A stretch of DNA of 64,000 nucleotides, taken from contig NC_008347.1 of NCBI RefSeq assembly GCF_000014745.1, positions 1,745,501 through 1,809,500 on the forward strand. The letters are read 5' to 3'. This stretch comes from Maricaulis maris MCS10 (GTDB taxonomy: Bacteria > Pseudomonadota > Alphaproteobacteria > Caulobacterales > Maricaulaceae). Shown here piece by piece: positions 38,360 through 57,660 of the stretch. The notes below the pieces were generated by a model that was given only the letters and a program-made list of their open reading frames with translations, was not told where the DNA came from and ran no database searches. A program made the translations under genes and the position numbers. Each line of letters begins with the position of its first letter. The first letter of the stretch is position 1.

Positions 38360-38608
38360 ATGGCATCGACCAGCCTCTCACTCGGCCCCCACTGGGAATC
38401 CTATATCCGCGATGAGGTGGCGAGCGGCCGCTATGGAACGGCCAGCGAAGTTGTCCGGGCAGCCCTGCGGGAGCTGGAGGGCCGCGGCGCGCGACTTGCC
38501 GCCCTGCAACACCATGTCCGCGAAGGCCTCAGTGAAGCGGATCAAGAAGCCTTCGTTGATGATTACGATATCGAGACGATCATAGCCGAGGCCGGGCGAG
38601 AGGCATGA
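38360..38608 (+). CDS. parD: ParD-type antitoxin
   Basis: 82 residues. The ribbon-helix-helix N-terminus (TSLSLGPHWESYIRDEVASG) with RYGTASEVVRAALRELE is typical of ParD/CopG-type antitoxins. The C-terminal half wraps the toxin. The stop overlaps the toxin start by four bases. Confidence 0.9.
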   Translation: MASTSLSLGPHWESYIRDEVASGRYGTASEVVRAALRELEGRGARLAALQHHVREGLSEADQEAFVDDYDIETIIAEAGREA

Positions 38609-38895
38609 CACTCCGGGTGCGGCTTACGCCGCGCGGCGTTGCAGATATCAAGGCCATCGCTCGCTACACCACGCAGACGTGGGGCCATTCGCAGTGTCAG
38701 AGCTATTTGCGGTCCCTGGACGACCGCTTCAGATGGCTCGCCGAACATCCGGCCTCCGGGCGACCGCGCGACGACGTCGCCGAAAGTTCCCGTTCATTCC
38801 GACACAACGCGCACATCGTTTTTTATCGCACCCGCGACGACGGTATTGACGTCCTCGCGGTCGTGCACAGCGCCATGGATATCGACGGCATCTGA
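38605..38895 (+). CDS. parE: ParE-type toxin
   Basis: 96 residues of the RelE/ParE superfamily: LTPRGVADIKAIARYTTQTWG, HPASGRPRDDV, RSFRHNAHIVFYRTRDDGI. ParE toxins usually poison DNA gyrase. It starts within the antitoxin stop (ATGA), the standard arrangement. Intact, so the pair may be functional. Confidence 0.9.
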   Translation: MTLRVRLTPRGVADIKAIARYTTQTWGHSQCQSYLRSLDDRFRWLAEHPASGRPRDDVAESSRSFRHNAHIVFYRTRDDGIDVLAVVHSAMDIDGI

Positions 38896-38918
38896 TCAAC
38901 CCTCCCCCCAAAAGAAAA

Positions 38919-38942
38919 GGGCCCCGCGCAATGCGAGGCCCC
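38919..38942 (-). terminator. Terminator downstream of the diiron-protein gene
   Basis: A GC hairpin built on GGGCCCCGCGC and GCGAGGCCCC with small bulges, followed on the minus strand by CCCTTTTCTTTT. It sits in the convergent gap between parE and the diiron-protein gene. Confidence 0.65.
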
Positions 38943-38975
38943 AAGTCCGGGATACTGTGTGTGAGCCGGTCCGGC

Positions 38976-40067
38976 CTATTCGGCCATGCCGCCAACCGCA
39001 TGCACATAGGCCGTGCGGACGTCCTGGTGCTTGACGGTGTCGAGCTCGCGGGCGATTTCCTCGTCCTGCCTGGCGAGGGCGTCGAGGTCCTGATCGGCAT
39101 AGTGCAACACGCCCATATCGGCATAGGCCTTCTGGATCTTCGGACCCCACAGGCCGATATCCTTGACCACCGGTACGATGCGCTGGAAGAGCAAGGTCTT
39201 GAACAACTTGTTCATTTCTGACTGCTCGGCCCAGGCGACACATTCCTCGACCGGCAAGCCCATGACTTCATAGACTTCCCGCGCCTGGAAACGGTCGCGC
39301 ATGTGATAGCAGGCCTCGACCAGGAATTCCTCGCGCTCGTCGCGCTCGGCCTGGGTCAGGTGCGGATAATAGTCCCGCAGTGACAGGCGACCGAAAGCGA
39401 CATGACGCGCCTCATCTTCCATCACATAAGCATTGACCATTTTGGCCAGCGGGTTCTGGGCCAGGTCACGGATCGTGCCGAAGGCGGCCAGGGCCAGCCC
39501 TTCAATGACGACCTGCATGGCCAGATAGGTGAAGTCCCAGCGGCTGTCGCGCAGGGCCTGGTCGACCAGCTGGCGCAGCGGTTCGGTCATCGGATAGGCG
39601 ACGCCGAACTTGGTCATCAGATTCTTGTAAGCCTCGACATGGCGGGCCTCATCCATGACCTGGGTCGCGGCGTAGAATTTGGCGTCGAGATCGGGCACCG
39701 ATTCGACGATCTTGGCAGCACAGATCAGGGCCGCCTGCTCGCCCTGCATGAATTGCGAGATATTCCAGGCCTGGGCATGACGGCGGAACTCGATACGTTC
39801 CTTCTTCGTCATCTTGTCCCACATCGGCGAGCCGTGCAGCGCGATGCCTTCATCGGGCAGCTGCATCGGGTTTTCCGGGTCCAGCTCCAGCGTCCAGTCG
39901 ATGCGATTGACCGCATCCCACTGCATGTCCTTGCCCTTCTGGTACAAGTGCATAAGGGTCGAGCGACCTTCGTCATACTCGAAGTCGAACGTGGCGTCGA
40001 ACTGTTCCGGGATCGACCAATTCTTGTCGATGTCCTGCATCGGATATAGATCGCGAAGCGATGCCAT
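38976..40067 (-). CDS. Ferritin-like carboxylate-bridged diiron protein
   Basis: 363 residues forming a four-helix diiron domain. Metal ligands are readable: E110, E140-xx-H143 (DEARH), E189, E219-xx-H222 (DEARH). This is the full ligand set of R2-like/AurF-like oxygenases and oxidases. The protein is too short and lacks the radical-transfer C-terminus for a class I ribonucleotide reductase small subunit. It is likely an oxidase, hydroxylase or desaturase acting on a hydrophobic substrate; the substrate is unknown. The gene has its own operator-like palindrome upstream (40136-40150), shared with the downstream catabolic genes. Confidence 0.82.
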   Translation of the reverse strand: MASLRDLYPMQDIDKNWSIPEQFDATFDFEYDEGRSTLMHLYQKGKDMQWDAVNRIDWTLELDPENPMQLPDEGIALHGSPMWDKMTKKERIEFRRHAQAWNISQFMQGEQAALICAAKIVESVPDLDAKFYAATQVMDEARHVEAYKNLMTKFGVAYPMTEPLRQLVDQALRDSRWDFTYLAMQVVIEGLALAAFGTIRDLAQNPLAKMVNAYVMEDEARHVAFGRLSLRDYYPHLTQAERDEREEFLVEACYHMRDRFQAREVYEVMGLPVEECVAWAEQSEMNKLFKTLLFQRIVPVVKDIGLWGPKIQKAYADMGVLHYADQDLDALARQDEEIARELDTVKHQDVRTAYVHAVGGMAE

Positions 40068-40104
40068 GGCGCGTTACCTCCCCAGGAGCGACCAAACATG
40101 TCTT

Positions 40105-40129
40105 GCATTGCCAATATTTTGTACAATGC
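40105..40129. promoter_or_regulatory. Inverted repeat in the diiron-gene promoter
   Basis: GCATTG-N13-CAATGC, with TTTTGTAC inside. It lies 38 bases upstream of the diiron-gene start and next to the GTGAACA-type site, so a second regulator may bind here. The TTTTGTAC core also occurs in reverse in the site before the ScfR-like gene. Confidence 0.4.
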
Positions 40130-40135
40130 GGATTG

Positions 40136-40150
40136 GTGAACAATGTTCAC
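40136..40150. promoter_or_regulatory. GTGAACA-type operator, site 1
   Basis: GTGAACAATGTTCAC is a perfect 15-bp inverted repeat with one central base, 69 bases upstream of the diiron-gene start. Near-identical sites occur at 42259-42276 and 45206-45223. TetR-family repressors commonly bind such sequences. No TetR gene is in the window. Confidence 0.7.
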
Positions 40151-40655
40151 AACCCGAACGTCTGTCAAAACGAGCCGTTTGGCAAGCCCTGAGACGAAAC
40201 GTGGCCGGGATATTTTATCGACTGTCCGTAGCCCTTGGCGCGATGGGCCGCGTGGCGCCGGGCGTCCGCCGGGGGTGCGGGCATGCGCCTTCGTCTTCGG
40301 CCGCGATTGCGCCGAAGGGTGGGAGGGAACGGGATGTCGGCGGACACCGGGGTGTCCTGTTGGTGGTCTGCGGTGTCCGTGATGTCCTCGACATCCCGTT
40401 CTCGGAGATTTCCCGGACGCTCTCGCCCCCGATTCCAATGCGCCAGGTACTGAGGGTCGGTCGTTTAGTGCCCCTGGACCTGATCGCACGCCCTGCCGGA
40501 GCTTTGGGGTGTCACATCCAAAGCGCGGACAGGCTCCGCTCGTTCCCGGGCACAAGTGACTGAGCTCGCGCCTCCCGTCCCGAAAACCAAGGGCAGTGTC
40601 CCATGGCGGATAAGGGGGGAGGATAAGTTTCCTGGATTTTATGCTGGGTGATGCG
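40151..40655. other. Noncoding stretch with nested inverted repeats
   Basis: About 500 bases with no convincing gene. Short frames exist on both strands but resemble no protein and lack Shine-Dalgarno sites. The clear structure is 40328-40400: AACGGGATGTC pairs with GACATCCCGTT, and inside them CGGACACC pairs with GGTGTCCG, around a smaller GGACACC-GGGGTGTCC hairpin. It may be a decayed gene or a structured transcript. Confidence 0.5.
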
Positions 40656-40760
40656 TTCCCTCTCCCTTGGGAGAGGGCCAGGGTGAGGGGCAAATCCCGG
40701 TGACCGCAAGAGTTTCTCCCCTCATCCGCGCTACGCGCACCTTCTCCCAGGGGAGAAGGA
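40656..40760. repeat. Palindromic repeat, family D
   Basis: CCCTCTCCCTTGGGAGAGGG at the left and CTTCTCCCAGGGGAGAAGG at the right, with GGGTGAGGGG and CCCCTCATCC between. This CCCTCTCC-type interspersed repeat is common in bacterial genomes. It ends 63 bases before the desaturase-like gene's stop. Confidence 0.65.
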
Positions 40761-40823
40761 AAGGGGTGCAGGGCGGGGATAAGTGGCGCGCATCAAGCAG
40801 GGGGCGAGGCGTGGCCCACGCCC

Positions 40824-41762
40824 CTACTCCGCCGCCTCGGCCTCAGCCTCTGCCGCCTTGTCCTGCCGGGCCTGCCATTTGGCCTTGATGGTTTTGGAGG
40901 TCTCCCGCGATCCATCCGGCGACCAGCCAGGCGGGGCGAGCAGGTAGAGTGCCGCGTCCTTGAGCGATTTCGCGCCGGCCATGTCCTTCACGATACCCAT
41001 CCACTCATGCAGGCAAATCTTGACCGGGTTGAAGGTGCCGAGATTCTTGACGATGCCGTAGCGGCAGGGTTCGTCGTCACGTTCTTGCTGGAAGGTGCCG
41101 AACATCTTGTCCCAGATGATGAAGATGCCGGCATAGTTCCGGTCAAGATAGATCGGATTGGTGGCGTGGTGGACGCGGTGGTGCGAGGGCGTGTTGAAAA
41201 CCGCTTCGAACCAGGCCGGACACCGTTTGATGGCCTCGGTATGGATCCAGAACTGGTAGATCAGGTTTAGCGCCCCGACAAAGGCGACCATCGCCGGATG
41301 GAAGCCGAGGAAGACCATGGCCGAGCCGAGCCACAGGAATTTCAACGTGAAGGGGCTGATCCAGGGCTGACGCAGAGCGGTGGTCAGATTGTAGTGCTGG
41401 GACGAGTGGTGAACGACATGGTCGGCCCAGAACCAGCGCACTGTATGGGCGAAACGATGCGACCAGTAATACAGGAAATCATCGAAGACGAAGGCGATCA
41501 CCCAGACCCACCAGGCGAAGGAGATATCCAGCAGGCGGTTGTCGTAGACAAAGACCGACCAGCCTCCCAGCAGTAGGCCGAAAATGATGCCGGAGACGTT
41601 ATTGCCCAGCCCCATGATCAGACTGGCCGCCGTATCCCGCGTCTCGAAACGGGTCTTGCCGGTCAGGCGGGCGTGAACCATCTCGGCAAAGACCGAAAGG
41701 GTGAAGAACGGGATCGCCAGGGTGATCGGGTTCCAGTTCTGGACGAAGGCAGGGACCTCCAT
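40824..41762 (-). CDS. Fatty-acid hydroxylase / sterol desaturase-family membrane protein
   Basis: 312 residues, with membrane segments at about 15-32, 50-72, 82-103 and 140-170. The histidine clusters that bind two irons in the family are present: HRFAH, VVHHSSQHYN and SHHRVHHATN. The C-terminus is a charged Ala/Glu tail. Such proteins hydroxylate or desaturate lipids or carotenoids, or cleave ether lipids. It starts two bases after the upstream small gene ends, so the two are cotranscribed. The substrate is likely the hydrophobic compound handled by the surrounding genes (inference). Confidence 0.87.
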   Translation of the reverse strand: MEVPAFVQNWNPITLAIPFFTLSVFAEMVHARLTGKTRFETRDTAASLIMGLGNNVSGIIFGLLLGGWSVFVYDNRLLDISFAWWVWVIAFVFDDFLYYWSHRFAHTVRWFWADHVVHHSSQHYNLTTALRQPWISPFTLKFLWLGSAMVFLGFHPAMVAFVGALNLIYQFWIHTEAIKRCPAWFEAVFNTPSHHRVHHATNPIYLDRNYAGIFIIWDKMFGTFQQERDDEPCRYGIVKNLGTFNPVKICLHEWMGIVKDMAGAKSLKDAALYLLAPPGWSPDGSRETSKTIKAKWQARQDKAAEAEAEAAE

Positions 41763-41764
41763 GA

Positions 41765-42193
41765 TCAGGCCCTCGCAACTGGCTGGAGGTCGGACAGTCG
41801 GCCGGCCCAGAGCGAGGCCTCATCGGCCGTGCTGAACCGCAATCTGGCCGGCGCAAAGACAAAATCATTAAGGCGAAGCCGCACGGCACTCCCCTCCTCC
41901 ACGACTGCGTCCCGCACACTGCCGGGCACCAGATAACGGATCACCAGGTCACTGCCCCGGGCGACCAGAAGCCCGAGGCAATCGCCGGAGCGCTCGGCGA
42001 TCAGGGCCGCTGCGCCGTCAACGGCCAGCACACCCTCGCCGGCGTCGAAACCAACCCGGTCGGCATCCAGCCGACGGGCCGCGTCGTCCAGATCGACCAG
42101 GCGTGCAGGTCGGCTGATGCCGAGCCAGGCATTGATCAGGACCATGACACTGACGCCGAGAACAGACCCGGCCAACAGATAAATGAGCGACAT
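41765..42193 (-). CDS. Unknown protein with one N-terminal membrane segment
   Basis: 142 residues. A hydrophobic N-terminal segment (LIYLLAGSVLGVSVMVLINAWL) anchors a soluble domain of about 110 residues with a PH-like run of short strands (VRLRLNDFVFAPARLRF). No family recognised. ATG 42193 has GGAG 7 bases upstream. It precedes the desaturase-like gene by two bases, so it may be its partner. Confidence 0.6.
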   Translation of the reverse strand: MSLIYLLAGSVLGVSVMVLINAWLGISRPARLVDLDDAARRLDADRVGFDAGEGVLAVDGAAALIAERSGDCLGLLVARGSDLVIRYLVPGSVRDAVVEEGSAVRLRLNDFVFAPARLRFSTADEASLWAGRLSDLQPVARA

Positions 42194-42218
42194 CACACAG
42201 CTCCGCGTCCAACGAAAA

Positions 42219-42245
42219 CGGGCGGGACCCGAAAGGTCCCGCCCG
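42219..42245 (-). terminator. Rho-independent terminator after the TonB receptor gene
   Basis: A perfect 11-bp stem CGGGCGGGACC/GGTCCCGCCCG with a 5-base loop, followed on the minus strand by TTTTCGTT. It lies 30 bases past the receptor's stop codon and 26 bases before the next minus-strand gene. Confidence 0.9.
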
Positions 42246-42258
42246 CGATCATACGCTT

Positions 42259-42276
42259 ATTTGAACGTTGTTCACT
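42259..42276. promoter_or_regulatory. GTGAACA-type operator, site 2
   Basis: Reads AGTGAACAACGTTCAAAT on the minus strand, differing from site 3 by one base. It overlaps the stop codon of the TonB receptor and precedes the terminator and the small-protein/desaturase-like pair, so it could control that pair. Confidence 0.6.
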
Positions 42277-44995
42277 AGCCGCGAACACGCAGGGTGATGC
42301 CGTAGGTCTGCGGATCACCCGGATAGGCGTTGTAGCTGGTGCCGAGATAACCAACCGACGGGAAACCGCCCTTGGTGTAGTTCTCGTCAAAGATGTTCCG
42401 GCCCCAGAGCTGGACTGCCCAGGCACCGTCATCGGCGCCCAGCGTCACAGATGCGTTGTAGAGCTGGAAGGCATCCTGGTTGGCGAAGGGACGCGGGTCC
42501 TGGCTGGTCGTGTGACCAAATTCGGACACGTGGTTCATCTCACCGCGCCAGGACATTTCCATGCCCTCGCCGAGCTGATGCGTGTAGGTCGCCGTCAGCG
42601 CGCCGAGGAACTCGGAATTGCCGCGGTCACGACCAGACAGGTCGTTGAACAGGGCCGTCACGCCAGCGCCATTGGTGCGCTCGGCACCCGGTACGCAGAG
42701 CGCGAAGTCCGGATCGGTCGCATCGAAGCTGTCCGGGCAAGGCGCGTAGAGATATTCGCCATACTTGCTTTCGAACAGATAGGTGAAGCCACCGGTGATC
42801 AGGAGATTGTCGGTCGGAGCCCACTGACCTTCGAACTCGATACCGGACACTTCGATCGAACCGGCATTTTCCAGAGCAAAGCCGTTGCCGACGAAGTTGT
42901 TGGTCTGGAAATCGGTCACTTCCTGGCGGAAGTAGGCAGCCGCATAGACAAAGCGGCCGTCATCGAATGAGCCCTTGGCACCGAACTCGATGTTTTCCGC
43001 GGTTTCTTCCTCGAACTCGAACACGCCGGTGAAGGCGGCATTGGTCGAGACGTTGAAGCCACCCGGCTTGTAGCCCGTCGCGTAGGACGCATAGACGTTG
43101 AACGTGTCGGACACATCGTAGGACAGGATGATGTTGCCCGAGAAGTTCGAGTCATTGCGCGAGGTCGGGAAGTTGCCCGCATTGACCGGCGGGAAGTTCT
43201 GGAAGGCAGTGAAGCCCAGCAGCGGGTTCAGGGCCGGATTGGCGGCCTGGGCTGCGGTCAGCGGCGAGGTCGGCGAGATGCCGAGCGCCAGCAGCGTGTT
43301 CAGCAGGGTCGGGTCGCCGCCAATGGCTTCCGCCTGAGCCTGACCGAACAGGATGGACGGGACCAGATAGGCACAAGCGTCACCGCCGATGACACCGAAC
43401 AGGCCCGGATCACAAGTGCCTGGCGTCACCAGACGCAGATCCTGCGCAAGGTCGGCAAAGGAGAAGGCCGACATCGGATCGGGCTGGTTGATCGCCGTCA
43501 CCATTTCCTTGTCTTCGTCGGAATAACGACCACCGATCGTGACCGTGAACTGGTCGGTCAGATGCCAGTCGACCGTACCGAAGGCCGACCAGGCCGTCGT
43601 GTCATACTGGTAGCTTTCCGAGATCAGGCCATGTTGGGTGGAAATGAAGCCTTCCGCCGGGGTCGTCGGCAGGGCGCCATTGCCCGATGCCAGCGGCACG
43701 AAACCGCCAACGCCGGCGGCCTGGTTCATGTCGAGGAAGATCTCGAGCAGGGACACACCACCCGTGCCGGCCGGAAGACCGAAGGACGCGACGAGGTCCG
43801 CAACAGAGCCAGCCGAAGCCGCGTCGAAGAAGGTCCGCGCATCGGCACCATAAGGCGTCGAGTTGTCGTAGCTCAGCTCGTTATTGTAGTAGAAGCCGCC
43901 AAACATCCAGTCGACCGCATTGTCGCCCGTGGAGGTCACACGGAACTCCTGGGTGAAGCTGTCATACTGGTTCTGGATCGAACGCAGGCTGATCAGGTCC
44001 AGATCCGAGAAATCGGCGTCGAAGATCTGGTCTTCGTCATACTGGCGGTAGGCCGTGATCGAGGTGAAGGTGAAGCCGTCAAAGTCATGCTCGATCTGGG
44101 CCGAGATGCCTTGCGTGGTCAGATCGGTATTCAGGTCACCATCAATGGCAATCGTGTCGCCGCCATTGACGTCAGCCGGAACGGCCGTGCCGCCGAGGCC
44201 GACGAGAGCGCCAAGGTCGATCGGGTCATAGAAGGCGAACGGAGCCGCACAGCAATTCTCGTCAAGCTGACCCCAGTCGGCGATGATGCGGACTTCGGTA
44301 TTGTCGCTCGGGTTGAACAGCAGCTGGCCGCGGAAGCTCATGCGATCGCGGTTATTGGCCTCACGCCCGTCAACGACGTCGATATAGCCGTCATTCTGGT
44401 GGATATTGCCGTCGAGGCGGAAAGCCATGTTGTCGGACAGCGGACCGGTCACGGTGCCGCGCGTCTGGCGCATGCCGTAATTGCCGACCGTCACTTCACC
44501 GGCATAGTTGAAATCAAAGTCCGGCGCCATCGTGATGACGCTGACAACACCGGCCGGCGTGTTGCGGCCGAAGATGGTGGACTGCGGGCCACGAATGACC
44601 TCGATGCGCTCAACCGACATCAGGTCGTTGATCGCAGAGCCCGAACGCGGGCGGTAGACACCGTCAATGAAGACGCCGACGGACGGCTCGAGGCCGGGGT
44701 TGAAGCTGGACGTACCGATACCGCGAAGATTGAACTCGGTATTGGTCGATGTGGCGAACTCGGACACGCGAAGCGCCGGAACGAGGGTCTGCAGGTCAGC
44801 GGCATCGCGGATTTGCGATTGCTCGAGCTGCTCGCCGGTGACGACGGCGACAGAAACCGGCGTGTCCTGAAGCGTCTGTTCGCGCTTTTGGGATGTCACG
44901 GTAATCACGTCGACCTGGGCCATTGCGCTACCCGCAAAAAGCCCGCTCAAAATTGCCGTCGTGCCCATCGCGACGGCTTTGGAAAACAGTTTCAT
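42275..44995 (-). CDS. TonB-dependent outer-membrane receptor
   Basis: 906 residues. A signal peptide ending near AMA-QVD. DVITVTSQKREQ at the mature N-terminus is the typical TonB box and plug start. The plug continues with DTPVSVAVVTGEQL, FNLRGIGTSSF and IEVIRGPQSTIFGRNTPAG, and a large barrel fills the rest. This group of receptors is common in Caulobacterales and Sphingomonadales and often takes up hydrophobic or complex organic nutrients. ATG 44995 follows GGGGAGAAA. It is divergent from the serine hydrolase/GMC/aldehyde dehydrogenase operon across 247 bases. Confidence 0.93.
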   Translation of the reverse strand: MKLFSKAVAMGTTAILSGLFAGSAMAQVDVITVTSQKREQTLQDTPVSVAVVTGEQLEQSQIRDAADLQTLVPALRVSEFATSTNTEFNLRGIGTSSFNPGLEPSVGVFIDGVYRPRSGSAINDLMSVERIEVIRGPQSTIFGRNTPAGVVSVITMAPDFDFNYAGEVTVGNYGMRQTRGTVTGPLSDNMAFRLDGNIHQNDGYIDVVDGREANNRDRMSFRGQLLFNPSDNTEVRIIADWGQLDENCCAAPFAFYDPIDLGALVGLGGTAVPADVNGGDTIAIDGDLNTDLTTQGISAQIEHDFDGFTFTSITAYRQYDEDQIFDADFSDLDLISLRSIQNQYDSFTQEFRVTSTGDNAVDWMFGGFYYNNELSYDNSTPYGADARTFFDAASAGSVADLVASFGLPAGTGGVSLLEIFLDMNQAAGVGGFVPLASGNGALPTTPAEGFISTQHGLISESYQYDTTAWSAFGTVDWHLTDQFTVTIGGRYSDEDKEMVTAINQPDPMSAFSFADLAQDLRLVTPGTCDPGLFGVIGGDACAYLVPSILFGQAQAEAIGGDPTLLNTLLALGISPTSPLTAAQAANPALNPLLGFTAFQNFPPVNAGNFPTSRNDSNFSGNIILSYDVSDTFNVYASYATGYKPGGFNVSTNAAFTGVFEFEEETAENIEFGAKGSFDDGRFVYAAAYFRQEVTDFQTNNFVGNGFALENAGSIEVSGIEFEGQWAPTDNLLITGGFTYLFESKYGEYLYAPCPDSFDATDPDFALCVPGAERTNGAGVTALFNDLSGRDRGNSEFLGALTATYTHQLGEGMEMSWRGEMNHVSEFGHTTSQDPRPFANQDAFQLYNASVTLGADDGAWAVQLWGRNIFDENYTKGGFPSVGYLGTSYNAYPGDPQTYGITLRVRG

Positions 44996-45205
44996 TGGAA
45001 TTTCTCCCCTGTGGCGCGGTTTTATTAGCCAACCATTCCGCGCATCTGTCCAATATATGAACACCGCTCGACACCTCTGTCAGCCGGTTTATCCCAGTCC
45101 CGCAAAAAACATGCCCGGCCTGATGCACGGATACCTCACCCAGTGTTTTGAATTTCCGTCAACAATCTGGCTCTTTTCTCCCGTCGCAACTCTGATACGT
45201 TAGAG

Positions 45206-45223
45206 AGTGAACAGCGTTCAAAT
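45206..45223. promoter_or_regulatory. GTGAACA-type operator, site 3
   Basis: AGTGAACAGCGTTCAAAT, 20 bases before the start of the serine hydrolase operon and in the divergent gap with the TonB receptor. It matches site 2 in 17 of 18 bases. Confidence 0.7.
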
Positions 45224-45242
45224 CGCTGTCATGGGGAGAGAA

Positions 45243-46526
45243 ATGAAGAAAATATTCATTGGGTTAGCGGTGATTATGGGCGCCGCCATCATCATTGGCG
45301 CAGGCTGGTTCTACCGGCCCTGGTCGGACTACTCACCCGCGGAAATCCAGGCGGCCACGCAGCCTGAACGTCTCGTGGAAACATTTTCAAACATGGGAGA
45401 TGTCTTCCCCTATCGCGCGATAAATTCAACCGAATCGGCGCGGGAGTTGCAGCGAAACCTTCAACCCGCGACCGTCGGCTACCGCCTGGGCGATGCCGAC
45501 CGGACCGTCGAAGACTGGATGGACGATAGCGACACCACCGGTTTGATGGTGATCCACAATGGCGAGGTCGTGCACGAGATCTACCGCCTCGGCGCCGATG
45601 CCGACACCCGGCACACGTCCTGGTCCGTCGGCAAGAGTTTTGTGGCCACCCTCATCGCCATGGCGATGCAGGACGGACGCATCGCCAATCTCGACCAGAG
45701 CGCCGAGATGTTCGCCCCGCAATATGGCGGCTCCGACTATGGCGACACGACACTGCGCCATCTCCTGATGATGTCGGCGGGCATGGATTTCGAGGAAGAC
45801 TATAACGCGCCCAATTCGGACATCCGCCGCCTCTTCCTCGGTGCAAACATCTATGGCCAGAATATTGATGGCCTGGTCAGCGAAATCGAGCGCAATCGTG
45901 CGCCAGGCGAGGACCTGCACTATGTCAGCGCCAACACCCAGGTGCTCTCGGCCGTGGTTCGCGGTGTCTATAACGACAATCTGGCCAATATCGTCCAGGA
46001 ACGGATATGGCAGCCGCTGGGCATGACCGGCGAGGCTTACTGGAACCAGAACATCCCTGGCGAGAATGGCATGGCGATCGGCTATTGCTGCCTCAATGCC
46101 ACGCTGGAAGATTATGCCCGCTTCGGGCAATTCTACCTGCAGGACGGTATCTGGGATGGCGAGCGCCTGCTGCCCGAAGGCTGGGTCACCCAGGCCACAC
46201 GCCCGAACGCCCCGTTTCAGGAAGCCGGCCCCAATTCGGTCTACCCCCATCGCGGCTATGGCCTGCACTTCTGGGTCCCGGAAAATCATGACGGCGAATA
46301 CTTCATGGCCGGCGTCTACGGCCAGTATGTGTGGGTGGATGAACGCCGCAATGTCGTCATAGCCCGCACCGCGGCCGACACCGAATGGGGTGGCCGGACC
46401 GAAGAGTCGATCATCGCCATGCGCGCCCTCGCCGCCCATTACGGTGACGCTGTGACGGCAGAACCGACCCCGGTCGAGCCGGTCATGCAAGAGGACGAGA
46501 CTGGAGGCGAAGATGAGCAGGACTGA
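45243..46526 (+). CDS. Serine hydrolase, beta-lactamase-fold (6-aminohexanoate-dimer-hydrolase-like)
   Basis: 427 residues with an N-terminal membrane anchor or signal (about 5-24). The catalytic SxxK is S128-V-G-K131. The tyrosine motif is Y227-V-S. The HYVSANTQVL context matches the NylB-type esterase/amidase group. It may hydrolyse an ester of the compound oxidised by the following enzymes. GGGGAGAG stands 2-9 bases before ATG 45243; an upstream GTG at 45207 lies inside the operator. The 3' end overlaps the GMC gene by 14 bases. Confidence 0.85.
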   Translation: MKKIFIGLAVIMGAAIIIGAGWFYRPWSDYSPAEIQAATQPERLVETFSNMGDVFPYRAINSTESARELQRNLQPATVGYRLGDADRTVEDWMDDSDTTGLMVIHNGEVVHEIYRLGADADTRHTSWSVGKSFVATLIAMAMQDGRIANLDQSAEMFAPQYGGSDYGDTTLRHLLMMSAGMDFEEDYNAPNSDIRRLFLGANIYGQNIDGLVSEIERNRAPGEDLHYVSANTQVLSAVVRGVYNDNLANIVQERIWQPLGMTGEAYWNQNIPGENGMAIGYCCLNATLEDYARFGQFYLQDGIWDGERLLPEGWVTQATRPNAPFQEAGPNSVYPHRGYGLHFWVPENHDGEYFMAGVYGQYVWVDERRNVVIARTAADTEWGGRTEESIIAMRALAAHYGDAVTAEPTPVEPVMQEDETGGEDEQD

Positions 46527-48117
46527 TTACGACTATATCATCTGCGGTGCCGGCTCGGCCGGCTGCACTGTCGCCGAACGCCTGTCCCGGGATCCGTCGG
46601 CATCGGTCCTGGTGCTGGAGGCCGGCGGCTCCGACAACAGCCCGATCATCCGCACCCCGATGCTGCTGCAATACGCGGTGACCGGCGAGCAGTTCAACTG
46701 GGGCTATTGGACCGAGCCGCAAAAACACCTCAACGACCGCAAACTCCTGTGGCCGCGCGGCAAGACGCTGGGCGGCTCGTCCTCGATCAATGCCATGCAC
46801 TATATGCGCGGCGCGAAAGAGAATTACGACGAGTGGGAAAGCGCCTATGGCGCCGAGGGTTGGGGCTGGGAGAACGCCCTGCCCGCCTTCAAGGAAGTCC
46901 AGAACCAGACCCGCGGCGCCAGCGATCTGCATGGCACGGGCGGCCCGCTCTGGGTCCAGGACATTGCGCCCCTCAACCCGCTGACCCAGGACTTCCTGAA
47001 AGCCGCAGACCAGCTGCAATACAAGCGCAATGACGACTTCAACGGTCCGCAACAGGAGGGTTTTGGCCCCTACCAGGTGACCCAGAAGGGTCACAAGCGC
47101 TGCTCGGCCGCCGACGCCTTCCTGAGGCCAGCCCTGGAACGCGAGAATTGCAGCGTCCAGACCGGCGCCCTGGTCCATCGCGTCGTCATCGAGAATGGCC
47201 GCGCCACCGGCGTCGAGGTCGAGATCGAGGGCGAGGTCCGCTTGATCAATGCGCGCAAGGAAGTCGTCCTGTCCGGTGGCGCAATCAATTCGCCCCAGAC
47301 ATTGCTTCTGTCGGGCATCGGCCCGGCCGACGAATTGCGCGAGGCCGGGGTCAGTGTCGTGCACGACCTGCCCGGTGTCGGCAAGAATCTGCAGGACCAT
47401 CTCGATGTCACGGCCCAGGTCTGGACCAAGTCATCGACATCGATCGGCAATTCCCTGCGGTCCCTGCCTACCCACATGTATATGGTGGCGCGCTGGGCGC
47501 TGCGCGGCGATGGCCCGTTCACGGTCAATCCGGTCCAGGGCGGTGCCTTCATCAAATCGGCTTATGCTGACGACCTGCCCGACCTGCAACTGGTCTTCAT
47601 CCCGGCGATCTCGAACCCGCACGGTGTTGAAAAGACGAGCGGTCACGGCATCACCCTGCATGTCTGCCAGCTCTATCCCAAGAGCCGGGGCGAGATCCGG
47701 CTGAAGACCACTGACCCCACCGACCATCCGGCCATCCAGCCCAATTATCTCGGCGAAGACTTCGATCTCGACGTGATGACCGACGGGCTGGCCAAGGTGC
47801 GCGACATTCTCAATGCGCCGGCCTTTGACCATGACCGTAAGGAAGAGCGTTATCCCGGTGCCGACATTACCACCATGGACGGGCTGCGTGAGGATGTGAA
47901 AGCGCGCGCCGAAACGCTCTATCACCCGACCTCGACCTGCGCGATGGGATCGGGCGAACTGGCCGTCACCGACAGTCGCTGCCGGGTCCGCGGCGTCGAC
48001 GGGCTGCGCGTCATCGACGCCTCCGTCATGCCCCGACTGGTCGGCGGCAATACCAATGCACCCACGATCATGATCGCCACCCGCGCGGCCGTCATGATCG
48101 CCGAAGACAACGCCTGA
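46513..48117 (+). CDS. GMC-family flavin alcohol oxidoreductase
   Basis: 534 residues, the choline-dehydrogenase/AlkJ type. FAD motif CGAGSAGCTVAERLS near the N-terminus, PRGKTLGGSSSINAM as GMC signature 1, SGGAINSPQTLLLSGIGP as signature 2, and the catalytic His in YHPTSTCAMG. It oxidises primary alcohols to aldehydes, passing electrons to quinone or oxygen. The aldehyde dehydrogenase gene ten bases downstream supports a pathway of alcohol to aldehyde to acid. GGAGG is 5 bases before the ATG. Confidence 0.93.
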   Translation: MSRTDYDYIICGAGSAGCTVAERLSRDPSASVLVLEAGGSDNSPIIRTPMLLQYAVTGEQFNWGYWTEPQKHLNDRKLLWPRGKTLGGSSSINAMHYMRGAKENYDEWESAYGAEGWGWENALPAFKEVQNQTRGASDLHGTGGPLWVQDIAPLNPLTQDFLKAADQLQYKRNDDFNGPQQEGFGPYQVTQKGHKRCSAADAFLRPALERENCSVQTGALVHRVVIENGRATGVEVEIEGEVRLINARKEVVLSGGAINSPQTLLLSGIGPADELREAGVSVVHDLPGVGKNLQDHLDVTAQVWTKSSTSIGNSLRSLPTHMYMVARWALRGDGPFTVNPVQGGAFIKSAYADDLPDLQLVFIPAISNPHGVEKTSGHGITLHVCQLYPKSRGEIRLKTTDPTDHPAIQPNYLGEDFDLDVMTDGLAKVRDILNAPAFDHDRKEERYPGADITTMDGLREDVKARAETLYHPTSTCAMGSGELAVTDSRCRVRGVDGLRVIDASVMPRLVGGNTNAPTIMIATRAAVMIAEDNA

Positions 48118-48127
48118 GGAGCCCATC

Positions 48128-49549
48128 ATGAGTGAAGCCGAAGCCAAGCAGATCGAACGCATGAAATCCCTCCTGGCCAGCCAGAAGTCGGCCTTCCGGG
48201 CCGAGCGGCACCGCCCGATCGACAAGCGCAAGGCCGATCTCGACCGGCTTGCCGATCTGTGTCGCAAAAACGCCGATGCCATCGCCGATGCGATCAGCCA
48301 GGACTTCGGCAACCGGGCGAGGCAGGAAAGCGTGATCGCAGAGCTCGCCTTCGTCATCCAGGATGCCGGCCATGCCAAGAAGCATCTCGGCAAATGGATG
48401 AAGACCCGAAAGGTCGGCGTTCCGCTGACCCTGGCACCGGGCTCGGCCAGCATCCGCCGCGAACCAAAGGGCGTGGTCGGGATCGTCTCGCCGTGGAACT
48501 ACCCGTTCCAGCTGGCGATGGCGCCCTTGGTCGCGGCCCTGGCTGCGGGTTGTCGGGTCATGATCAAACCGTCCGAATACACACCGGCGACGGGCGAGAT
48601 CATGAAGTCGCTGCTCGCCGAGGCCTTCGAGGAAGACCATGTCACCGTGATCACCGGCGGGCCCGCTGTCGGCGAGGCCTTCACCAAGCTGAAATTCGAC
48701 CATCTCTTCTATACCGGATCGACCCAGGTTGGCCGTCTGGTGGCCATGGCCGCCGCCGACAACCTGGTCCCCGTCACGCTGGAACTGGGCGGCAAGTCAC
48801 CGGCCATCGTCACACCGTCCTACCCGCAGGACGCTGCTGCCAAGTCGATCGGCTGGGGCAAATTCTTCAATGCCGGCCAGACCTGTGTCGCGCCGGATTA
48901 TGTGCTGGCGCCCAATGGTTCGGAAAAATCACTCGGCGAAGCCATCATCAAGGTCGCGCAGCACCAGTTTGACGATTCCGCCACCGACGACGCCTACACC
49001 GCGATCGTCTCGGACCGTCATTATGAGCGCCTCAACGGCATGATCGAGGAAGCCCGCACCGGTGGCGCCGAGATCCTGCAGCCCAAGCATGACGCCGAGG
49101 CCGCCAGGGCCGGCCGCAAGATCCCGCCGACCGTCGTCATCAACCCGCCGGCCGACAGCCGCCTGATGACCGAGGAAATCTTTGGGCCTGTCCTGCCGAT
49201 CATCGGCTATTCCGAGCTAGACGCCGCCACTGATCATGTCGCTGACCGCGACCATCCGCTGGCGCTCTATGTCTACTCGACCGACAAGACCGAAGCCGAA
49301 CGCGTGCTCGACAACACCATGTCGGGCGGTGCCGGGGTCAATATCAACCTGCTCCACCTGTCGGTGCCGGACCTGCCCTTCGGCGGCGTCGGCGCCTCCG
49401 GTCAGGGCAGCTATCACGGCGAGCATGGCTTCTTGACCTTCACGCATGAGCGCTCGGTTTTCCGCACCGGTAAATGGCACCCGTCCCGCCTGCTTGCTCC
49501 TCCCTATGGCAAGATGTACGAAACCGTCGCCAAGAAGCAGATGAAATAG
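48128..49549 (+). CDS. Aldehyde dehydrogenase (coniferyl-aldehyde dehydrogenase type)
   Basis: 473 residues. The catalytic Cys is in FFNAGQTCVAPDY and the general base Glu in ELGGKSPAIV. The short N-terminus and GVGASGQGSYHG tail fit the coniferyl/fatty aldehyde dehydrogenase subgroup. It would oxidise the aldehyde made by the GMC enzyme to the carboxylic acid with NAD(P)+. It sits between the GMC and SDR genes with very short gaps, so it is cotranscribed. Confidence 0.92.
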   Translation: MSEAEAKQIERMKSLLASQKSAFRAERHRPIDKRKADLDRLADLCRKNADAIADAISQDFGNRARQESVIAELAFVIQDAGHAKKHLGKWMKTRKVGVPLTLAPGSASIRREPKGVVGIVSPWNYPFQLAMAPLVAALAAGCRVMIKPSEYTPATGEIMKSLLAEAFEEDHVTVITGGPAVGEAFTKLKFDHLFYTGSTQVGRLVAMAAADNLVPVTLELGGKSPAIVTPSYPQDAAAKSIGWGKFFNAGQTCVAPDYVLAPNGSEKSLGEAIIKVAQHQFDDSATDDAYTAIVSDRHYERLNGMIEEARTGGAEILQPKHDAEAARAGRKIPPTVVINPPADSRLMTEEIFGPVLPIIGYSELDAATDHVADRDHPLALYVYSTDKTEAERVLDNTMSGGAGVNINLLHLSVPDLPFGGVGASGQGSYHGEHGFLTFTHERSVFRTGKWHPSRLLAPPYGKMYETVAKKQMK

Positions 49550-49556
49550 GCGTCAA

Positions 49557-50315
49557 ATGACGGGACAACTGGCGGGCAAACGCGCCCTGATCACCGGCTC
49601 CAGCCACGGCGTCGGCCTGGCAGCAGCCCATATGTTCGCCGCCCAGGGCGCGGAAGTCGTGCTGCACGGCAACCAGAACATGGCCGATGCCGACCAGGCC
49701 GTGCAGGCCATCGGCCCGGCGGCGCTGGGCGCGGTGCAGGCAGATCTGGCGCTGCCGGGCGCTGGGCGCGATCTCTATGACGCTGCCCTGCACCTGGCCT
49801 CGGGCCGGCTCGACATCATCGTCAACAATGCCGGCATCCACTGGGCCAGCCCGCTCGACAGTTCCGACAGTGACTGGGAGACCAGCTGGGCGACCACGCT
49901 GCAGGTCAATCTGATGGCCGTCGCTGACCTCTGCCGCGCGGCGATACCCGAAATGGTCGCTTCCGGCGGCGGATCGATCATCAATATCGCCAGCCGGGCC
50001 GGCTATCGCGGCGAAGACCGCAACCACATGGCCTATGGCGCCTCCAAGGGCGCGCTATTGTCATTGACCAAGACCATTGCCCGGCAATGGGGCGGTGATG
50101 GTGTTTATGCCTATGCACTGGCGCCGGGCTGGATCGATACCCGCATGGGACCGCAGCACGAGGAAGACCGCGCCCGCGCCAAGGCCGAGATTCCCATCGG
50201 CGAACTGGCCCATCCCGACGAGATTGCCGCCATGTGCGCCTTCCTCGCCTCCGGTGCCTGCCGCAGTGCGACGGGTAGCTGTATCGACATCAATGGCGCC
50301 AGCTACGTCCGGTGA
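49557..50315 (+). CDS. Short-chain dehydrogenase/reductase
   Basis: 252 residues. The cofactor motif TGSSHGVGLA is at about 15-24. NNAG follows in VNNAGIHW, and the catalytic Ser, Tyr and Lys come from INIASRAGY and YGASKGALL. It starts seven bases after the aldehyde dehydrogenase stop. It probably acts on a keto or hydroxy group of the same substrate. The cofactor and substrate are not readable. Confidence 0.9.
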   Translation: MTGQLAGKRALITGSSHGVGLAAAHMFAAQGAEVVLHGNQNMADADQAVQAIGPAALGAVQADLALPGAGRDLYDAALHLASGRLDIIVNNAGIHWASPLDSSDSDWETSWATTLQVNLMAVADLCRAAIPEMVASGGGSIINIASRAGYRGEDRNHMAYGASKGALLSLTKTIARQWGGDGVYAYALAPGWIDTRMGPQHEEDRARAKAEIPIGELAHPDEIAAMCAFLASGACRSATGSCIDINGASYVR

Positions 50316-54597: not shown

Positions 54598-55536
54598 TTA
54601 TGAGTCACGCTCTCTGGCGTGTGCGAGGAGTGTCCGTGAATCCATCCAGCGGAACAACCCCGCAACCAGTGATCCACCCACCAGGTGCCAGATGCTCCAG
54701 GTGCCGATAATGGCCGCGGCACCGCCGACACCTTCGAACTGGCTCAGGAGGATGACCAGGCCAAGCCCGGAATTCTGGATGCCGACTTCAAAGGTCAGGG
54801 CCCGGCGGCGGGCCGCTTCCATGCCCATGGCACGCCCGCCCAGCCAGCCAAGCGCGAAGGCAGACCCATTATGGAGAACGACGATGGGGATGATGATAGC
54901 ACCGGTGGCAAGGATCAGGGCCCAGTTCTGGACGATGCCGACGACGACCAGCAGCGCGATACAGGCCAGCGCCAAGGGACCGAGGACCGCTGCCAGGCGA
55001 CCCGCCAGGGCTGGACGCCACTGATTGAGCGCCATGCCCAGGATCAGGGGAACTGCGAGCAGAACCGCCGTCTGCGCAAAAAAGGGCAAAGGGTCGACGT
55101 CCAGCGATCGGACCAGCGCACCGGCCGGCGCATAGAGCCCGGACCAGAACAGGATTGAAAGCGGGGTCATGATCGCTGAAGAGACGCTGGAAATGGCCGT
55201 CAAGGTGACCGAGTAGGCCGTATTCCCGGCGGCCGCGCGGGTCAGCAGGTTGGAGACATTCCCGCCCGGACAGCTCGCCACGATCAACATGCCCAGGGCG
55301 ATGCTGGCCGGCGGCGACAAGAGGAGGATAAGGCCAAGGGTCAGCAGGGGCAGGCCAACCAGCTGGACCGCGACCCCACCCAGCACGCGACCAGGTTGGC
55401 GCCGTATCAATGCGAAGTCTTCCAGCCTCAGCGTCAACGCGACCGAGAACATCATCACAAAGAGAATCGCGGCGATCCCCAACCGCGATTGGTCATCAAC
55501 TATTACCTGCAATTGGTCGATCGCGCTGGCGTCCAT
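54598..55536 (-). CDS. Bile acid:sodium symporter (BASS)-family transporter
   Basis: 312 residues with 9-10 membrane segments. The family pattern VASCPGGNVSNLLTRAAAGN (sodium-site region) is clear. BASS proteins carry organic acids such as pantoate, keto acids or bile acids with Na+. ATG 55536 is preferred over TTG 55554 because AGGA lies 9 bases upstream. The first gene of a two-gene leftward operon, divergent from an HxlR regulator. Confidence 0.88.
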   Translation of the reverse strand: MDASAIDQLQVIVDDQSRLGIAAILFVMMFSVALTLRLEDFALIRRQPGRVLGGVAVQLVGLPLLTLGLILLLSPPASIALGMLIVASCPGGNVSNLLTRAAAGNTAYSVTLTAISSVSSAIMTPLSILFWSGLYAPAGALVRSLDVDPLPFFAQTAVLLAVPLILGMALNQWRPALAGRLAAVLGPLALACIALLVVVGIVQNWALILATGAIIIPIVVLHNGSAFALGWLGGRAMGMEAARRRALTFEVGIQNSGLGLVILLSQFEGVGGAAAIIGTWSIWHLVGGSLVAGLFRWMDSRTLLAHARERDS

Positions 55537-55814
55537 AAAGGCATGTCCTGTCAATAACTTGTCACACTCACGAAAACCGGAAATGCCTGACCAATCAGGC
55601 GCTAACCAGTTGTCATGTCAACATAAGGGTCGCCAAAATCATCACAGCCTGTATCCTGATAGGGTTGTATTGTGCGCGTCAATTTCCGGTTTTCCGGACG
55701 GGGCGCACGATGACCGCAGGGACAATATCTCGCCTTGGGGGCAGGATGCTGTGGTCATTTTTTTGTTTATCGAGCAGGTCGCACGGGCAGTGACCAGGTG
55801 TTTGGGGGACCGTA

Positions 55815-56282
55815 ATGGGTCGAAAACGTTTTGATGAAATGTCGTGCGCAATCGCGCAGACGCTGAATCAAGTGGGCGATTGGTGGACGCTGCTGATTGT
55901 ACGCGACGCCATGAAAGGCGCGCGGCGCTTCAGTGATTTCCATGAGAGCACGGGTATCGCGAAAAACATTCTGACGGACCGTCTCAACAAGCTTGTCGAG
56001 AACGGAATCATGGTGCGCGAGGAAGTCGGTGTCCGGGGCCAGCGTCAGGAATATGTCCTGACCGAGCGCGGTGAAGCGCTGTTCCCGATCCTCATGGCGA
56101 TGCAGCAATGGGGCGATAAGTGGGTTTATGGCGAGAAGGAAGTTCCGCTGGAGGTCTATGACGTCCGTACCGGCGAGCAGCTGGCTCCCATGGCCGTCGC
56201 CAATCAGAGCGGCGAGCAGGTCAGCCATCGCGATATTGCCGGTCGCGACCCGAATGGACGCGCCATCCGCGAAGCTGGCTGA
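55815..56282 (+). CDS. HxlR-family transcriptional regulator
   Basis: 155 residues with an HxlR winged helix (VGDWWTLLIVRDAMKGARRFSDF, then ILTDRLNKLVENGIM). A cysteine (MSCAIAQ) sits just before the domain, as in thiol- or aldehyde-sensing members. A C-terminal extension of about 50 residues holds a short strand-rich tail. The 278-bp gap to the divergent BASS/amidohydrolase operon suggests it regulates that pair. Confidence 0.87.
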   Translation: MGRKRFDEMSCAIAQTLNQVGDWWTLLIVRDAMKGARRFSDFHESTGIAKNILTDRLNKLVENGIMVREEVGVRGQRQEYVLTERGEALFPILMAMQQWGDKWVYGEKEVPLEVYDVRTGEQLAPMAVANQSGEQVSHRDIAGRDPNGRAIREAG

Positions 56283-56388
56283 CACGGCGGATTACGCCCA
56301 GGCCCATTCGCGATTGGCGAATCAGGGCAAAAATTGTCCACTTCCCTCGCGTGTGACCTTGAGCGTTGCACGCGGGAGGAAGGGACAC

Positions 56389-57660
56389 TTGACTGCCAGA
56401 CGCCCCCTGAAATCACTGATCTTGCACATCGTACTGTGCGCCATGGCCGTCGGAGCCTGTGGCGCGCCACAAACGCGTGATGTGACCACCGCCGACCGCC
56501 GCTATGCGGGCCAGTTGGTCGAGCGGCTCGCGGCGGCCAGTCCCGGCGACATCATCGACATCCCGGAAGGCGTGTTCGCCTTTGACCGGACGCTTGTCGT
56601 CGCAGCCGACAATCTCATCCTGCGCGGTCAGGGCGCTGATCGCACCATCCTGTCCTTCCAGGATCAGGTCATGGGATCGCAGGGCGTGCGGATCACCGCG
56701 AACCGTGTCTCCCTTGAAAGCCTCGCGATTGAAGACCCGGTCGGTGACGGTGTTTCAGTGCTTGGCAGCGACGGCGTCGGAATTCGTGGCGTCCGCGTCG
56801 AGTGGACCGGGGGACCGGCTGCCGACAATGGCGCTCACGGGATCGCGCTTGATGAGGCCAGCAACATCCTCATCGAAGACAGTATTGCCATCGGAGCCGC
56901 CGTGGCCGGCCTTCATCTCGGCCAGTCGCGCAATGTCGTCGTGCGCGGCAACCGCACCGAATCCAATCTTGTCGGCATACAGGTCGAAAACACGATCGGC
57001 GCCGACCTGCATGACAACGCGGCCACCCGGAACACGGCCGGCATCCTCGTATCGAGCACGCCGGGACAGGGGCAGGTCGGTCGGATGACGCGGATATTCC
57101 ACAATCATCTCTTCGCCAACAATGTCGACAACCCCGCCCCTGCCCGATCCCCGCTCGCCGCACTGCCCGCTGGTTCCGGCATTGTCCTGAGCGCCAGCGA
57201 CCAGGTCGAGATCTTCGGCAATGTCATCGCCGACAATCGCACCGCCAATATGATAATCACGGCGCGCCAGTCGACCGGCTTGCCAGCGACCTCCCCGCCG
57301 GATGGATTTGATCCCTATCCCGAAGCCATCCACATTCACGGCAATACCTTCTATGACGGTGGCAACAATCCCGACGGTCTCGACCTGCAAGGCCTGAGGC
57401 TTGTCCTCGCCGGACCACTCGGCCGCCTGCCGGATATCCTCTGGGACGGCCACCGCAATGGCGAAAACGGGCGCGATGGCGCCGGGACGGACCATCGGTC
57501 GATCTGCCTCGAGGACGAAGAGGCTGACATCGTCAACACCGACGCCGCCAACGAACACGCGCAACCGCATATCGTTACCCAGGCGCATGAATGCGCCTTG
57601 CCCCCCTTGCCTGCAATCCAACTGGAAGCGGCTGGCCGGTTCGATCCCGCACCTCGCTAG
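56389..57660 (+). CDS. Parallel beta-helix repeat lipoprotein
   Basis: 423 residues. A lipoprotein signal with lipobox VGAC is followed by repeating beta-helix coils (IEDPVGDGVSVLGSDGVGI, NVVVRGNRTESNLVGIQVEN and similar), as in right-handed parallel beta-helix proteins. Such folds bind or cleave polysaccharides or act at the cell surface. Catalytic residues were not identified. TTG 56389 is taken as start, with GGAGG 9 bases upstream and the signal peptide beginning there. Confidence 0.8.
   Translation: MTARRPLKSLILHIVLCAMAVGACGAPQTRDVTTADRRYAGQLVERLAAASPGDIIDIPEGVFAFDRTLVVAADNLILRGQGADRTILSFQDQVMGSQGVRITANRVSLESLAIEDPVGDGVSVLGSDGVGIRGVRVEWTGGPAADNGAHGIALDEASNILIEDSIAIGAAVAGLHLGQSRNVVVRGNRTESNLVGIQVENTIGADLHDNAATRNTAGILVSSTPGQGQVGRMTRIFHNHLFANNVDNPAPARSPLAALPAGSGIVLSASDQVEIFGNVIADNRTANMIITARQSTGLPATSPPDGFDPYPEAIHIHGNTFYDGGNNPDGLDLQGLRLVLAGPLGRLPDILWDGHRNGENGRDGAGTDHRSICLEDEEADIVNTDAANEHAQPHIVTQAHECALPPLPAIQLEAAGRFDPAPR

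Follow-up and report, generated by a model that had tools for sequence, protein, structure and literature searches.

AcrR-type TetR repressors such as EnvR and MtrR control an adjacent resistance-nodulation-division (RND) pump and, in addition, genes elsewhere in the genome (PMC6790063). In Caulobacter crescentus, the TetR-type repressor TipR controls the RND pump AcrAB-NodT and, according to PMC10754441, few chromosomal targets. The present analysis concerns a 64,000-nucleotide stretch of the Maricaulis maris MCS10 genome (NC_008347.1, positions 1,745,501 to 1,809,500; hereafter the window), in which three sites sharing GTGAAC-N3-GTTCA accompany genes for oxidative enzymes. The three sites are likely operators of one TetR-family repressor, here termed TetR-B, whose release by a hydrophobic ligand would turn on export together with oxidation; that TetR-B binds them is, judging from sequence comparison, very probable.

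TetR-B resembles EnvR and MtrR in lying beside an RND pump, with a palindromic site at the pump promoter and with distant putative targets, and differs in that these distant targets are mostly oxidative enzymes and in that motif and regulon are common to Maricaulaceae and Hyphomonas/Henriciella. With TipR it shares the type of repressor, an RND pump as putative target and the order, whereas the TipR consensus, WTGaGWMtGAWC, differs by inspection from the present motif, tipR and its pump genes are divergent while TetR-B is co-directional, and the TipR targets djlA and ccrM differ (PMC10754441). Identity with TipR was rejected on this consensus and gene arrangement. PheR of Sphingobium was also discarded as a parallel, being an IclR protein. 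Other TetR regulators, such as PfmR, FadR, KstR2 and AlkX, control lipid or alkane oxidation. TetR-B shares with them the TetR fold and putative control of oxidative, lipid-related genes; their operators and gene sets differ, and to our knowledge none of their regulons includes an efflux pump or TolC. The type of switch is familiar; in open-licence papers searched for the motif, for TetR regulons of Maricaulis or Hyphomonas and for a combined efflux/oxidation TetR regulon, no description of the present regulon and gene set was found.

The original prediction had placed one operator at the diiron gene, one at a desaturase-like pair and one at a divergent TonB receptor/serine hydrolase operon, and all three sites are present in the window (Table 1). 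Operator 1 ends 68 bp before the ATG of the diiron gene and operator 3 ends 21 bp before that of the serine-hydrolase gene, while operator 2 overlaps the TonB-receptor stop codon, 5' of that gene's terminator-like hairpin, and stands about 65 bp ahead of the 143-aa gene, which the hydroxylase gene follows. Exact matches to GTGAACANYGTTCA in the window amount to four rows at three places, against none in 100 dinucleotide-preserving shuffles; with up to two mismatches there are eight rows, against a shuffle mean of 1.68 and a largest value of 7. These counts, together with conservation of the arms in congeners, uphold the claim that chance recurrence is unlikely.

Conservation was scored as matches out of 14 arm and R/Y positions, using a set of 18 congeneric genomes, a wider set of 41 genomes and an order set of 200 genomes. 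Of the 18 congeners, 17 have the diiron-gene site at 14/14 and one at 13/14, and 17 have the serine-hydrolase site at 13/14 and one at 12/14. The hydroxylase-side site reaches 13/14 in 14 congeners, 12/14 in two and 11/14 in one, and in the remaining congener its position falls off the contig. Arm identity to the reference reaches 99.5% at site 1 and 97% at site 3, and the measured 15-base flanks reach 40-65%. Site 1 likewise scores 14/14 in G020, G022 and G024, three of the four family members of other genera with a high-identity diiron gene. The fourth, G021, has retained the genes for the diiron protein, the hydroxylase and the serine hydrolase and has neither TetR-B nor any of the three sites; in G032 and G040, from another family of the order, the diiron gene is 66-67% identical, with no TetR-B and no perfect site. 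In 19/19 Maricaulis genomes, the serine-hydrolase operator retains AGC at its centre and one imperfect arm, with A or T for the last C, whereas the centre of the diiron-gene operator is variable.

Across the whole genome (3,368,780 bp), the motif as originally proposed yields six exact rows at five places and its reversed pattern none, while the relaxed core TGAACRNYGTTCA has seven exact places. All seven are gene boundaries when ATG starts are taken, one in the window overlapping the last bases of the TonB-receptor gene: the three window sites, one place upstream of a 2Fe-2S ferredoxin gene, one upstream of TolC, one between TetR-B and an RND pump, and one between a second TetR gene (TetR-A) and a PspA gene. 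The motif is thus rare and tied to gene boundaries, rather than frequent and unrelated to gene starts. With one mismatch allowed, TGAACRNYGTTCA has 34 places against eight for the reversed pattern, so that lone one-mismatch places are unreliable without conservation; those at 78332 (by far the least clear), 1277312 and 2188073, for which conservation is not established, were left out of the targets.

Thirteen TetR helix-turn-helix (HTH) matches occur in the genome, two of which, TetR-A and TetR-B, adjoin exact sites. The TetR-B gene (C1:1159229-1159876, 215 aa), outside the window, is followed by the site and then, in the same direction, by genes for an HlyD-like membrane fusion protein and an AcrB/AcrD/AcrF family protein, which is the arrangement of a local RND-pump repressor, its gene adjoining the pump and the site lying in between, where the pump promoter would be. 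Membership of the TetR family is indicated by the PF00440 TetR HTH score (49.2 bits, cut-off 24) and by the all-helical, two-domain TetR fold of the AlphaFold2 model, including a putative ligand-binding C-terminal domain, with a predicted local distance difference test score (pLDDT) of 89.3. The model has 385 PDB matches at E <=0.001, the 50 listed being mostly named TetR regulators; PfmR, PvrA, FadR, FasR and KstR2 are among the matches listed, fatty-acid/acyl-CoA regulators included, and as neighbours of a predicted structure they are compatible with a lipid-type ligand but not specific for one. In the recognition-helix region, residues D50-Y51-S52-P53...Y57-K58-Y59-F60 do not vary among 26 orthologs.

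The distribution of TetR-B follows that of the perfect site. Among the 41 genomes, the perfect motif occurs in 26 and a TetR-B relative (E <1e-40) in the same 26 (Fisher p 1.6e-11), and among the 200 order genomes, a perfect site occurs in 59/60 with TetR-B (E <1e-40) and in 14/140 without (Fisher p 7e-36), both p values treating related genomes as independent, with shared ancestry uncorrected. Two genomes of the wider set with weak TetR matches (G034 and G038, E ~1e-16 to 1e-17) carry no site. Position agrees with distribution: in family f2, 25 of the 34 genomes with TetR-B have a perfect site 37-87 bp ahead of the matched TetR-B start. In a named collection, 80 loci were kept from 106 relatives, and a site of at least 13/14 flanks TetR-B in 68 of them, upstream in 42/42 Hyphomonas/Henriciella-type loci (L358-L399) and downstream in 26/38 Maricaulaceae-type loci (L320-L357); the 515,086 bases scanned contain no other match of at least 13/14 and no reversed-pattern match. 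The original prediction had called for one TetR-type repressor, encoded elsewhere and carrying a site of its own, and TetR-B, 626 kb away and tracking the perfect sites in both genome sets, appears to be that protein.

Several observations weigh against this assignment. The TetR-fold neighbours are unspecific, the best match, 3on2, having no assigned function. The 14 of 140 order genomes with a perfect site but no close TetR-B include G042 and G159; three of the 14 have weak TetR-B-like matches near 1e-21, and a related regulator may use the same motif in these genomes. Conversely, G051 has TetR-B but no perfect site. Twelve of the 80 named loci carry no site of at least 13/14, ten of them having a 12/14 variant at the same place and the other two having nothing of at least 11/14 beside the gene. 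In M. maris itself, no site lies upstream of TetR-B, and the phylogenetic profiles cover only TetR-A and TetR-B among the 13 TetR HTH matches. Finally, a sigma-70 scan of 38900-46600 returned no promoter, against a shuffle mean of 2.1, and promoter positions were therefore read by eye from conserved spacing.

The predicted target set of TetR-B is wider than originally proposed, comprising by sequence an RND pump, TolC, ferredoxin, P450, a second diiron-like protein and acyl-CoA dehydrogenase in addition to the window operons. The 36 perfect sites of the 18 congeners each have an assigned target, namely the diiron gene (17), TolC (11), the RND pump (3), a PF10118 protein (3), a nitronate-monooxygenase-like gene (1) and a TPR protein (1); in relatives, some sites have no clear target gene (L251, L252, L257, L263 and L272). 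Sites of 13/14 adjoin the ferredoxin gene in at least 14 of the 18 congeners and, among the matches listed, lie in some congeners each at a P450 gene, the nitronate-monooxygenase-like gene, the PF10118 gene and a MerR-like/acyl-CoA dehydrogenase pair. G022 has further perfect sites, next to a Coq4-like gene and in the interval that separates a flavin monooxygenase gene from a carboxylesterase gene. The TolC site occurs in G022 too and, within family f2, in G033 and G037, so that TolC and the TetR-B/pump locus are the targets with the widest distribution.

Two further groups of genes were observed near 13/14 sites. In five congeners (L254, L258, L262, L264 and L273), such a site lies near homologs of two window genes, the SBF (bile-acid-symporter family) gene and the gene at 56071; the corresponding part of the window itself (54598-57660) holds no site of at least 11/14. 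In G003 (L260:226-2301), a second PF10118 protein gene and a fatty acid desaturase gene lie downstream of another 13/14 site.

In the mechanism that we infer, covering binding, repression, promoter positions, ligand class and physiological role, a TetR-B dimer would bind GTGAAC-N3-GTTCAC and repress from close to the promoter. Alignments read by eye contain a TTGCC-N17-NACNTT-like pattern at the diiron gene and a TANNNT-like -10 element at the serine-hydrolase operon, each 4-7 bases ahead of the operator; with this conserved spacing, a bound repressor would block initiation at both. TATGAT follows operator 2 in the closest relatives (by eye), and transcription from a promoter at this position would begin at the hairpin. 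Occupation of the TetR-B C-terminal domain by a hydrophobic ligand would release the repressor, switching on export through the RND pump and TolC along with oxidation by diiron proteins, ferredoxin, P450, GMC and aldehyde dehydrogenases and acyl-CoA dehydrogenase. It is about as likely as not that the inducer is lipophilic and undergoes both oxidation and export. The TonB receptor, originally counted in the regulon, is not clearly under an operator, with one site at its 3' end and operator 3, 208 bp upstream of its ATG, standing beside the opposite operon; the site of the serine-hydrolase operon, proposed together with it, is conserved.

Control of the window sites by TetR-A (C1:1474189, beside the PspA gene), as true or joint regulator, is unlikely. 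Its divergent promoter region holds two sites, one exact for TGAACRNYGTTCA, and its N-terminal domain is of the same family as that of TetR-B, but in congeners the sites at TetR-A itself mostly read ATGAAC...GTTCAT/G, not GTGAAC...GTTCAC, and close orthologs are missing beyond the genus, the best match in the 22 other relatives having an E of 1e-12 or worse. G020, G022 and G024 keep the diiron-gene site despite having no close TetR-A, and congener G007 keeps the sites with TetR-A matches that are weak or partial. Because of this phylogenetic range and its own different site type, TetR-A was rejected as main regulator and as the best explanation. The PspA-TetR-A interval (L027:8090-8161; C1:1474089-1474160) contains two tandem sites about 57 bp apart, of the ATGAAC type in many congeners, and cross-talk between the two TetR regulators is possible there.

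A division of labour, with TetR-B controlling the pump and TolC only and another regulator of similar motif (another TetR or a LexA-like protein) controlling the window sites, is quite improbable. The genome offers candidates in 11 further TetR HTH matches outside the profiling, but the perfect consensus of the diiron-gene sites is identical to that at TetR-B and TolC, and the diiron-gene site is lost in G021 along with TetR-B. LexA of Bacillus and DesT of Pseudomonas recognise palindromes that also have GAAC arms, with a spacer of four bases against three in the window sites, and the present targets are not SOS genes. Operators of LexA, DesT and FabR type were rejected on spacer and target genes; a search of open-licence papers on DesT and FabR operators returned nothing. 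That the sites are chance matches, or serve some role other than operators, is hardly credible in view of the shuffles and of the contrast between arms and flanks at sites 1 and 3, even though operator 2, at a gene end before a terminator hairpin, occupies an unusual place for an operator.

Table 1. Coordinates of the three putative operators and of the surrounding genes in the window.
Feature	Position	Strand	Remarks
Operator 1	40136-40150	.	GTGAACAATGTTCAC; perfect palindrome GTGAAC-AAT-GTTCAC; upstream of AurF-like diiron gene
Operator 2	42261-42275	-	GTGAACAACGTTCAA; GTGAAC-AAC-GTTCAA; upstream of 143-aa gene and fatty-acid-hydroxylase gene
Operator 3	45207-45221	+	GTGAACAGCGTTCAA; GTGAAC-AGC-GTTCAA; ahead of serine-hydrolase gene
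AurF-like (PF11583) ferritin-fold diiron protein, 363 aa	38976-40067	-	Conserved E110, E140, H143, E189, E219, H222
Fatty acid hydroxylase superfamily protein (PF04116), 312 aa	40824-41762	-	
143-aa protein, no Pfam match	41765-42196	-	Directly upstream of hydroxylase gene
Terminator-like hairpin after TonB-receptor gene	42218-42246	-	3' of operator 2
TonB-dependent receptor (PF00593, PF07715)	42275-44998	-	
Serine hydrolase, beta-lactamase/esterase superfamily (PF00144)	45243-46526	+	
GMC oxidoreductase, choline-dehydrogenase-like	46513-48117	+	601.6 bits against subfamily cut-off of 605
Aldehyde dehydrogenase	48128-49549	+	
Short-chain dehydrogenase	49557-50315	+	Last gene of likely operon

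The gene beside operator 1 encodes a member of the AurF-like diiron oxygenase family, as indicated by its PF11583 score (78.3 bits, cut-off 29.6). Its six putative metal ligands (Table 1) are invariant in 22 sequences from relatives, and its model (pLDDT 78) has as nearest structures CmlI, aldehyde-deformylating oxygenases, R2-like ligand-binding oxidases and AurF. With the AurF/CmlI N-oxygenases, the deformylating oxygenase and the R2-like oxidase it shares the ferritin fold and two carboxylate/EXXH metal motifs, whereas its identity to these structural matches is 13-20%. A search of open-licence papers on AurF-like and PF10118 proteins found nothing usable. On the other side of the locus, the serine hydrolase, GMC oxidoreductase, aldehyde dehydrogenase and short-chain dehydrogenase genes likely form one operon, judging from gene spacing.

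The hairpin beyond operator 2 has a z of -4.35 for the folded stretch, and by eye its stem also pairs, with different letters, in several congeners; in G014 and G008 (L195 and L196), a G+C-rich repeat-like sequence stands in its place after the best-matching receptor end. Elsewhere in the window, the intergenic sequence at 40655-40775 is repeat-like by eye, with inverted CCCTCTCCC...GGGAGAGGG and CTTCTCCC...GGGAGAAGG blocks, and two small overlapping genes at 38360-38895 resemble, by eye, a ParD/ParE-type toxin-antitoxin pair.

The original description of a locus for hydrophobic-compound oxidation holds insofar as oxidation genes carry the sites, and proves too narrow because no targets are shared as widely as the RND efflux pump and TolC. 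The data point instead to what is probably a genome-wide switch, in which one TetR-type repressor turns on an efflux pump together with oxidising enzymes. A more tentative extension, possible rather than probable, is an 'oxidise and export' regulon in which a single repressor responds to a lipophilic molecule, perhaps of lipid or steroid type, and releases pump, TolC, monooxygenase-type enzymes and alcohol/aldehyde oxidation together, with pump and TolC as the old core and oxidative genes added per lineage; such additions would be the diiron, hydroxylase and serine-hydrolase loci in Maricaulaceae and the Coq4-like, flavin monooxygenase and carboxylesterase genes in G022. The imperfect arm of operators 2 and 3, kept in nearly all congeners, could lower affinity and so set an order of induction.

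For Maricaulis and its relatives, these results define a concrete, testable regulon of about ten operons with a named candidate regulator, tying enzymes of unknown substrate (the AurF-like diiron protein, the PF10118 protein and the P450 with its ferredoxin) to an efflux system. If an inducer of the pump were found, it would point directly to what those enzymes act on, and a local efflux repressor may in this way gain metabolic targets over evolution.

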